From a virus, in the IMG/VR virus record IMGVR_UViG_3300044946_000064, positions 1-26,110 of that record: 26,110 nt of DNA; one strand, 5' to 3'. Positions 4,359-6,903 of the stretch are shown piece after piece. The position numbers and the translations under genes were made by a program. Within the stretch, counting starts at the first letter, position 1. Every line of letters begins with the position of its first letter. The notes under the pieces were generated by a model. It searched no databases and was not told the origin of the DNA. It worked only from the letters and a program-made list of their open reading frames with translations.

Positions 4359-4945
4359 TGATTCAAAACGGCCGCGTGCTGAGCCGCAACGAGACCCACG
4401 ACCTGAGCATGATCATCAAGGATCGGGCGAAGGTCCTCAAGGCCCACGCCGAGGAACAGGCAGCGCACTGCATCGCCGATTTCGAGAAGAAATTGGCCGC
4501 AGTCTATTCCTGGGATCAAGACGAAATCTGGCAGGCGGCGACCGAGGAGGCGCAGAAAGTCGTCGCCGAGTCCCAAGCCAAAATAGCGGCCCGTTGCGAA
4601 GACCTTGGCATCCCGAAATCGTTTGCGCCGGCGATCGGCATGAGCTGGTCGGGGCGCGGCGAAAACGCGCTCAACTCGCGTCGGGCCGAACTGCGCCGGG
4701 TCGCCAAGACTTCGATCGAGGCGATGATGAAGGCCGCCATCACCAAGATCGAGAAACAGAGCCTCGAACTGCGCACCCAGATTGTTTCCTTGGCGGTGCT
4801 GTCGGACGCCGCCCGCGTCTTTCTCGAAAGCTTGGCCCCTGTCGACGAAGCCATGCGGTCTCTCGACTTCGCCGAGATCGAGCAGAAGTTGGAGCGCGAG
4901 CAGCAGCAACGCATCGTCGATCGCCGGCATTTCGGCATGATCTGA
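4355..4945 (+). CDS. Hypothetical coiled-coil phage protein
   Basis: 196 aa. Start at 4355 in an ATGA overlap with the truncated resolvase copy. The sequence is almost entirely helical and charged, with Ala/Glu/Lys/Gln-rich stretches (KDRAKVLKAHAEEQAAH, AATEEAQKVVAESQAK, QKLEREQQQR), a hydrophobic patch about 130-160 and no Cys-rich or catalytic motif. I do not recognise a named family. It is bracketed by two copies of the resolvase 5' end, which suggests it was acquired as a unit. The next gene begins on an ATG overlapping its stop (TGATG). Confidence 0.65.
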   Translation: MMIQNGRVLSRNETHDLSMIIKDRAKVLKAHAEEQAAHCIADFEKKLAAVYSWDQDEIWQAATEEAQKVVAESQAKIAARCEDLGIPKSFAPAIGMSWSGRGENALNSRRAELRRVAKTSIEAMMKAAITKIEKQSLELRTQIVSLAVLSDAARVFLESLAPVDEAMRSLDFAEIEQKLEREQQQRIVDRRHFGMI

Positions 4946-5544
4946 TGACCGGCGGCATCCTCGCGCTCGACGTCGCCACAACAACCGGCTGGGCCTATGG
5001 CATGCCGGGCGACCGTCCCGCTTTTGGGCATTTCCGCTCGGGCAAACCGCGCGACGCCACCGGCGAGGTCCTGGCGCAATTCCGCGTCTGGCTCGATCGC
5101 TGCTGCGCCAAATCCCAGCCGCGGATGGTCGTATTCGAGGCGCCCTATGTGCCGCGGTTCGCGCCTAAAAAGGTCCGCACAAAAACCGGCCAAGTGATCT
5201 CGACGACGCCGAGTTCGTCGACGCCGATCGACATTTACGTGGTGCGCCGGCTGTTCGCGATGTGCGGCCTGGTCGAGATGATCGCGCACGAGCGCGGGCT
5301 CCCCTGCCGCGAGGAGCAATCCAACGTCATCTGCCGCCACTTCACCGGCAACGGCTCGTGGGGCGGCCGGGAGAACAAGAAAGCCGCGACGCAAAAGATG
5401 TGCGCCGTCTATGGCTGGCCCGATGTCAGCGAGGACGAGGCGGACGCGCTCGCCCTCTGGGTCTATGCCGAGGCGGTGCTGTTCCCGAAAGCCCGAAGTG
5501 CTGGACCGCTGTTCGCGCTCGGCGACCGGGCTCGTTTCACGTAA
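4945..5544 (+). CDS. RuvC-like Holliday-junction endonuclease
   Basis: 199 aa with the RNase H-fold RuvC layout. The first catalytic Asp is at about residue 9 in ILALDVATTTGWA, a Glu at about 65 in MVVFEAPYV, and a C-terminal acidic cluster at about 164-167 in SEDEADALALW. The length is close to bacterial RuvC (~170) and to phage RuvC-like resolvases. It would cut branched DNA, resolving recombination or replication intermediates before packaging. A larger open frame extends upstream, but the ATG at 4945 is preferred because it overlaps the previous stop and gives the family N-terminus. The 5' end is duplicated at 4272. Confidence 0.85.
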   Translation: MTGGILALDVATTTGWAYGMPGDRPAFGHFRSGKPRDATGEVLAQFRVWLDRCCAKSQPRMVVFEAPYVPRFAPKKVRTKTGQVISTTPSSSTPIDIYVVRRLFAMCGLVEMIAHERGLPCREEQSNVICRHFTGNGSWGGRENKKAATQKMCAVYGWPDVSEDEADALALWVYAEAVLFPKARSAGPLFALGDRARFT

Positions 5545-5636: not shown

Positions 5637-6116
5637 ATGTCTGACACCGCCGCCGCGCGTCCGTGGCCGATCGAGACGATCGAGCGCCGCCCGGTCGCCA
5701 TCGCGGAACTTGATGAATTGATCCTTGCCCACGAAGCGCTGTTGCACCGGCTGCGCCGGCTACGTCAGCAGCTGATGCCGGATGATCCGCCAGATGATCC
5801 GCCGCCGGATTGTAAGACTGACCCGCTGGTGTGGGATTTGGCGTTCAGCGTCCGGACATTGAATTGCTTCGCGCACCGCGTAACCTGCCGCTTAGTCAAT
5901 CCAGAGGAGCCGGACGTTCATAAGCGGAAAATCAAATGGTATCCTGCCCCGCTTGTTCGACTAAGCGAGGTCGCAGCCTTGTCGCGTTCCGAACTGCTGA
6001 GTATTCCGAATTTTGGGAAAATCTCTTATCGAGAGGTTCACGCCATTTGCGTTCAATATGGTTTTTGGCGGGCGGACGATCGGCGATATGACCCGACGCG
6101 TTGGCGATATGGCTGA
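5637..6116 (+). CDS. RNA polymerase alpha C-terminal-domain-like protein
   Basis: 159 aa. Residues about 68-142 follow the RpoA alpha-CTD pattern: LAFSVRTLNCF (compare the SVRSANCLK helix of E. coli alpha), then VRLSEVAALSRSELLSIPNFGK and SYREVHAICVQYGF, which is the paired helix-hairpin-helix with the hallmark PNFGK turn. About 25 extra residues separate the first helix from the second. Alpha-CTD binds UP-element DNA and activators. A free-standing phage copy could compete with or redirect host RNA polymerase. The N-terminus (residues 7-20, ARPWPIETIERRPV) is identical to the N-terminus of the next gene, the ParB protein, and is encoded in a 46-bp direct repeat. ATG 5637 has no clear Shine-Dalgarno. 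Other helix-hairpin-helix families are the alternative. Confidence 0.7.
   Translation: MSDTAAARPWPIETIERRPVAIAELDELILAHEALLHRLRRLRQQLMPDDPPDDPPPDCKTDPLVWDLAFSVRTLNCFAHRVTCRLVNPEEPDVHKRKIKWYPAPLVRLSEVAALSRSELLSIPNFGKISYREVHAICVQYGFWRADDRRYDPTRWRYG
5652..5697 (+). repeat. 46-bp direct repeat, copy 1
   Basis: This stretch matches 6118-6163 at 44 of 46 bases; the only differences are T/C and G/T near the left end. It encodes the N-terminal ARPWPIETIERRPV of the alpha-CTD-like protein. The two copies are 466 bp apart and bracket nearly the whole alpha-CTD-like coding sequence. Confidence 0.9.
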
Positions 6117-6903
6117 AGCCGCGCGCCCTTGGCCGATCGAGACGATCGAGCGCCGCCCGGTCGACAAGTTGATCCCCTATGCGCGTAACGCCCGGAAACA
6201 CACCGCGAAACAGATTGCGACGATCGCCGCCTCGATCCGCGAATTCGGCTGGACGATGCCGGTCCTGATCGACGAAGCGGACCTGATCATCGCCGGACAT
6301 GGGCGCGTGCTCGCCGCGCCGCAGCTGGACCTGCTCGAGGTCCCGGTGATCGTCGCCCGCGGCTGGACCGCCGCGCAAAAGCGCGCCTATCGCGTCGCCG
6401 ACAATCAAATCGCCCTCAACGCCGCCTGGGACAACGGATTGCTGCGGGTCGAACTCGCCGACTTGCACAACGAGGGCTTTGATCTCGAAATGCTCGGGTT
6501 CGCGACCGCGGACGCGACCGCGCGCGACGATTTCGGGGGTGAGCTGCCGCAGGCGCTGCAACTGGAACCCGCCCGCGAATATGCCGTCATCATGTGCCAG
6601 GACGCCGCCGAATGGGAACGGCTCAAGGTTGCCCTGTCGCTCGTCCCGGTGCGCCGCGGGGGCTACAAAAAGGGTTCGCCGTTTGATGATGTCGGAACAC
6701 AACGCGTCGTCGCCGCCGCGGACATCCTGCGCCTGATCGCAGAGGGGACCGCCGACAATGCTGATCGCCGTTCCAAGCAAAGGCCGCGCCGGCCGCGTGA
6801 CGACTCAGACGGTGCTGCCGTCCGCGACGCTGTTCGTTCCCGCGCTCGAGGTGCCGGCCTATCAGCGGATGGGCGCGCGCCAGGTCGTCGCCGTTCCGGA
6901 TGA
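6109..6903 (+). CDS. ParB N-terminal-domain protein of the DNA-methylase-associated type
   Basis: 264 aa from ATG 6109, whose first codons overlap the previous stop. Residues about 17-100 are a clear ParB/Srx-fold domain: DKLIPYARNARKHTAKQI, IAASIREFGWTMPVLID, IIAGHGRVLAA (about 60-70), then KRAYRVADNQIALNAAWD. This variant is found in prophages, often fused or next to DNA methyltransferases and other base-modifying enzymes. No methylase follows here; instead a glycosyltransferase starts inside the end of this gene. Residues about 157-212 form a second small domain (YAVIMCQDAAEWERLKV to VAAADILRLI). The last ~48 residues, out of frame over the glycosyltransferase start, are low-complexity and Arg-rich, as if an original stop near 6757 was lost by frameshift or mutation. 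Confidence 0.8.
   Translation: MAEAARPWPIETIERRPVDKLIPYARNARKHTAKQIATIAASIREFGWTMPVLIDEADLIIAGHGRVLAAPQLDLLEVPVIVARGWTAAQKRAYRVADNQIALNAAWDNGLLRVELADLHNEGFDLEMLGFATADATARDDFGGELPQALQLEPAREYAVIMCQDAAEWERLKVALSLVPVRRGGYKKGSPFDDVGTQRVVAAADILRLIAEGTADNADRRSKQRPRRPRDDSDGAAVRDAVRSRARGAGLSADGRAPGRRRSG
6118..6163 (+). repeat. 46-bp direct repeat, copy 2
   Basis: Second copy of the repeat, encoding residues of the ParB-domain protein just after its start. The near-identity, including third codon positions, indicates a recent duplication rather than two conserved protein termini. Confidence 0.9.

Follow-up and report, generated by a model that had tools for sequence, protein, structure and literature searches.

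A foreign, small gene for a stand-alone RNA polymerase alpha C-terminal domain (alpha-CTD) appears to have recombined into the 5' end of a phage ParB-domain gene. The whole stretch of DNA that was analysed (the window) is a single virus record of 26,110 bp. In it, the ancestral start codon of ParB and its first ~20 codons are now used by the alpha-CTD gene, and the present ParB gene has its start at a second leader that overlaps the alpha-CTD stop. We place high confidence in this insertion history and in the identity of the domain. The whole explanation, in which the inserted gene would supply a dimeric, free alpha-CTD that modulates transcription, is given a probability of about 0.5. The features of the locus are as follows.

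4945..5544, + strand: RuvC-like resolvase gene (phrog_159), in the left flank common to the sister phages
5637..6116, + strand: gene for the stand-alone alpha-CTD protein, a 159-aa ORF that starts with leader copy 1
5652..5700, + strand: leader copy 1, at the ancestral ParB 5' position and now opening the alpha-CTD gene
5814..6113, + strand: end of the linker and alpha-CTD segment; GC 0.54, GC3 0.58, codon adaptation 0.47
6109..6903, + strand: ParB N-terminal-domain gene, a 264-aa ORF with its ATG at 6109; match to phrog_620 at E 1.8e-47
6118..6166, + strand: leader copy 2, opening the present ParB gene; its core is the allele of sister contigs L005 and L016
6758..7474, + strand: TET-associated (base-modifying) glycosyltransferase gene, in the right flank common to the sisters

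Comparison of the window with itself showed that positions 5652-5700 and 6118-6166 are identical at 46 of 49 positions and lie 466 bp apart, start to start. This repeat tops all 49-bp ungapped self-matches in the 26-kb window (runner-up 39/49) and agrees, over a slightly longer stretch, with the 44/46 repeat at 466 bp reported in the first-pass annotation. The repeat coordinates also bear out its placement of the alpha-CTD-like module exactly between two ParB leaders. The end it assigned to the module, 6163, needs correction to 6116, where the alpha-CTD gene stops; the stretch beyond takes in copy 2, a part of ParB. The two genes share 8 nt, ATGGCTGA, at 6109-6116, the ParB start lying within the final codons of the alpha-CTD gene.

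In relatives, the motif WPxxxIERRPVxxLIPYARNxRKH is the N-terminus of ParB, and the leader is therefore native to ParB and secondary in the alpha-CTD gene. The possibility had been raised that the leader is a conserved domain found independently with both genes; this was not seen in the relatives, where the leader occurs solely as the ParB N-terminus. The start of copy 2 (ATGGCTGAAGCC) resembles the ParB starts of other relatives. The downstream gene is assigned by its profile match to phrog_620, a ParB-like phage protein, and Pfam ParB_N scores 18.9 bits on it, under the cut-off of 26.3.

Three sister contigs from other metagenomes (L005, L006, and L016) carry one leader each, running straight into ParB without an alpha-CTD gene, which is the allele that the first-pass annotation had proposed to look for. 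Their flanks are mostly 97-99% identical to those of the window, with one piece of the L005 left flank at 94%. No alpha-CTD match was found in 13 related records (the three sisters and 10 more), and the distant relatives with upstream sequence (L008, L010, L013, and L015) have no alpha-CTD upstream of ParB. The right junction is absent from all other viral contigs searched, and the insertion is known from one assembled contig. These near-identical phages form a natural with/without pair for a stand-alone alpha-CTD gene.

The composition of the alpha-CTD segment is foreign: the phage codon adaptation of 5814-6113 is lower than that of all 141 100-codon windows elsewhere, whose minimum is 0.49. 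A tblastn search with the alpha-CTD protein gave no match among isolate phages or plasmids, and neither genome contigs nor 297 genomes from the order of the Bradyrhizobium relative matched the insert without its leader. Among the fetched loci, nothing related to the coil and linker was found; L010 has DDPPDDP before its ParB, probably by chance.

The two leaders also differ in their affinities. The core of copy 2 is that of L005/L016 (CGCGCCCTTGG...GTCGAC), and at three sites copy 1 has L006-type bases (CGT, G before TGG, GTCGC). The copies differ at 3/49 positions and in the start region, and the flanks differ from the sisters by only ~1-3%. The leaders thus look like different sister alleles, a leaning rather than proof given the few informative sites, which points to recombination with a related phage more than to transposon target duplication. 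The earlier proposal of a recombination that duplicated the leader seems to oversimplify the event, since each copy resembles a different sister allele. The insert probably arrived with the ParB 5' end of a related phage that carried the gene beside ParB.

The allele without the gene might itself be derived, an ancestral alpha-CTD gene having been lost from the sisters through recombination between the leader repeats. The L005/L016 leader does resemble the 5' part of copy 1 joined to the 3' part of copy 2, as after a deletion. At least two separate losses would be needed, however, because L005/L016 and L006 differ in their ParB 5' allele; the four distant relatives with upstream sequence have no alpha-CTD before ParB, and the composition of the segment would still be foreign. 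Loss from the sisters is possible but less parsimonious than insertion, and we consider it unlikely.

The second part of the argument is the identity of the inserted domain. The encoded protein is divided as follows.

Residues 1-20 of the 159-aa protein: ParB leader
Residues 22-46: predicted leucine-heptad helix
Residues 47-62: Asp/Pro-rich linker (PDDPPDDPPPD)
Residues 65-143: alpha-CTD, interrupted after helix 1 by a ~22-aa insert

Pfam RNA_pol_A_CTD (PF03118) matches the protein at 29.5 bits (cut-off 23.8, E 6.3e-7), in an alignment that spans the helix-hairpin-helix (HhH) part alone, 109-136. A profile built from 43 phage alpha-CTDs, with the window's protein left out, scores 44 bits over residues 65-143, with 2000 shuffles at or below 6.5. 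Its alignment bridges the insert and crosses SVRTLNC (residues 71-77) and IPNFGK (residues 123-128), the two motifs that had been noticed in the first reading. A structure model made with the family alignment has a pLDDT of about 90 in the core and fits solved alpha-CTDs with Z of 8-9.3, best at 1.7 A. The alignment-free model reached a pLDDT of 45, and the family-alignment model is for that reason supporting rather than independent evidence. Between them, the Pfam score, the full-domain profile match and the structural fit uphold the earlier call of an alpha-CTD.

It is rather improbable that the domain is a generic HhH DNA-binding module unrelated to transcription. The restriction of the Pfam match to the HhH part and the presence of polymerase-eta chains lower down the fold list would fit such a module, but the whole domain, including the SVRTLNC helix, aligns once the insert is bridged, Pfam at E up to 1 gave no other HhH family, and the top fold scores are all to solved alpha-CTDs.

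Residues R73, N76, C77, N125, G127, S130, and E133 are the equivalents of R265, N268, C269, N294, G296, S299, and E302. R73 and N125 are invariant in the 43 other phage domains, with N125 sitting within the search pattern. The K298 equivalent is I129, a position that is Lys in 42/43 of the other phage domains, and the K291 equivalent is S122. R265 and N294 enter the DNA minor groove, and K291 and K298 touch the DNA backbone (PMC7822876). With the equivalents of both lysines lost, DNA binding may be weak, and protein contacts perhaps have a larger role. The absence of these two basic residues also leaves the first-pass suggestion that the protein could retarget RNA polymerase a tentative one. 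The N-terminal assembly domain of rpoA is absent, with equivalog models scoring 11-18 bits against cut-offs of 228-434.

Two further explanations concern the junctions. An assembly chimera joined via the repeat would be limited to one contig, as the insertion is, and assemblers can be misled by near-identical repeats. Against this, the copies are exactly identical over at most ~34 bp, which we infer to be short relative to usual assembly word lengths, the left junction keeps the ORF in frame and the ParB overlap is exactly ATGGCTGA, and the same sister contigs match both flanks; we regard a chimera as very unlikely. A transposon-like insertion with target-site duplication could leave direct repeats around a foreign segment missing from the sisters, but it is the least probable reading, as the 466-bp insert was found to contain neither a transposase gene nor terminal inverted repeats, a target duplication of 46-49 bp would be very long, the repeat falls on a gene start, and the copies differ from each other more than the flanks differ from the sisters (only about 1-3%).

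The architecture of the protein suggests how it may act. The helix at 22-46 has Leu at 6/7 a/d positions (25, 28, 32, 35, 39, 42, 46), with His at 32, and may dimerise the protein. Such a dimer, read from the heptads alone, would present a pair of alpha-CTDs through a flexible acidic/proline linker, like the RNA polymerase alpha dimer, and would amount to a miniature alpha dimer minus the core-binding domain. The free alpha-CTD could then engage A/T minor grooves, alpha-CTD-binding activators, or both, and shift transcription by competing with host RNA polymerase or by bridging to it; the competition would be over A/T grooves or activators, and the dimer might also link partners to DNA. Confidence that the protein is a transcription modulator acting via its alpha-CTD is moderate to low. 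If phage-encoded alpha-CTDs such as this one do modulate host RNA polymerase, they would represent a simple, testable route to transcription takeover that uses the polymerase's own domain.

The ParB locus is variable in other respects. In L006, the leader is separated from the RuvC-like gene by a ~166-bp insert containing a small ORF (L006:2725-2892, window ~5542); this is a separate, second insertion at the locus, and ParB 3' ends differ as well. At the ParB 3' end of the window (6739-6752), ~85-110 bp present in the sisters are missing, which gives ParB a C-terminal tail unlike theirs; this tail runs into the glycosyltransferase gene. The presence of this glycosyltransferase gene beside ParB suggests DNA base hypermodification in the phage. 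In seven relatives (L007, L009, L011, L012, L014, L017, and L018), the contig begins at NNNGATTTTT or no more than about 10 bp from it. This motif precedes the ParB start by some 20-40 bp, and three other relatives (L010:2968-2988, L013:2944-2964, and L015:1266-1286) continue across ACCGCGCCCCA|NNNGATTTTT. The site has the look of a physical genome end (cos) next to ParB in these phages; the window lacks the motif.

The first-pass annotation considered an alpha-CTD unusual as a stand-alone phage protein, a view that needs softening: stand-alone alpha-CTDs of 85-252 aa were found in 65 viral contigs, none of them a full-length rpoA, and extra copies occur in some Bradyrhizobium genomes. The other phage alpha-CTDs adjoin terminases, DNA polymerases, and exonucleases, neighbours that mark these as phage loci; ParB is not among their 25 commonest neighbour families. 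By eye, many are joined to helical or HTH-like segments, and the diverse set L091-L155 includes some HTH-like or sigma-region-4-like segments (e.g., L137, L151, and L152). PHROG matches were obtained for 5 of 10 stand-alone alpha-CTDs tested. A single match was strong, and it was to a family of unknown function; none of the matches for these 10 proteins is annotated as an RNA polymerase domain. In a tblastn search of the phage collection with an RpoA alpha-CTD, most hits were annotated RpoA or came from unannotated records that may be bacterial, with the exception of Ruegeria phage vB_RpoS-V16. No paper on phage-encoded stand-alone alpha-CTDs was found in a partial coverage of the literature, which is weak evidence. 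Among 99 genomes of the genus to which the Bradyrhizobium relative belongs, some contain extra short alpha-CTD-like ORFs, and one 852-aa ORF in that genus (L088, G377:C42) combines, by eye, an alpha-CTD-like domain with a sigma-like HTH segment. We tentatively suggest that stand-alone alpha-CTDs may be widespread, largely unnamed phage transcription modulators, in which a portable alpha-CTD coupled to a dimerising or HTH module mimics the alpha dimer and serves as a decoy or recruiter, and that the insertion in the window captures one of them entering a phage genome through capture of the start site of another gene.

The alpha-CTD-like ORFs of the Bradyrhizobium genus, mostly 85-156 aa and patchy in distribution, are stand-alone like the window's protein, but their similarity to it is low and no link to the leader or ParB was seen. 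The L004/L125 phage protein (IMGVR_UViG_3300022665_000676) shares LLSIPNFGKIS and has also lost the K298 lysine; unlike the window's protein, it has an unrelated neighbourhood, other extensions, and a domain without the insert. The stand-alone alpha-CTDs of uncultivated phages (e.g., L103, L104, L127, and L134) are small and, as here, combine one alpha-CTD with helical or HTH-like extensions, and in L127 and L134 the domain has an insert at the same place; their extensions are different, however, and no duplicated ParB leader lies beside them. The ParB gene of the window is, by profile, a member of the ParB-CTPase-fold phage proteins (phrog_620), surveyed in a text that makes no mention of RNA polymerase (PMC12704722); these normally keep their own single N-terminus, unlike the ParB of the window. 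With the CTD of RNA polymerase alpha (PF03118), the window's protein has in common the fold, both motifs, and the R265 and N294 equivalents. It differs from alpha in lacking the N-terminal assembly domain, in having K291 and K298 replaced, and in carrying a ~22-aa insert after helix 1 together with a helix and linker of its own.
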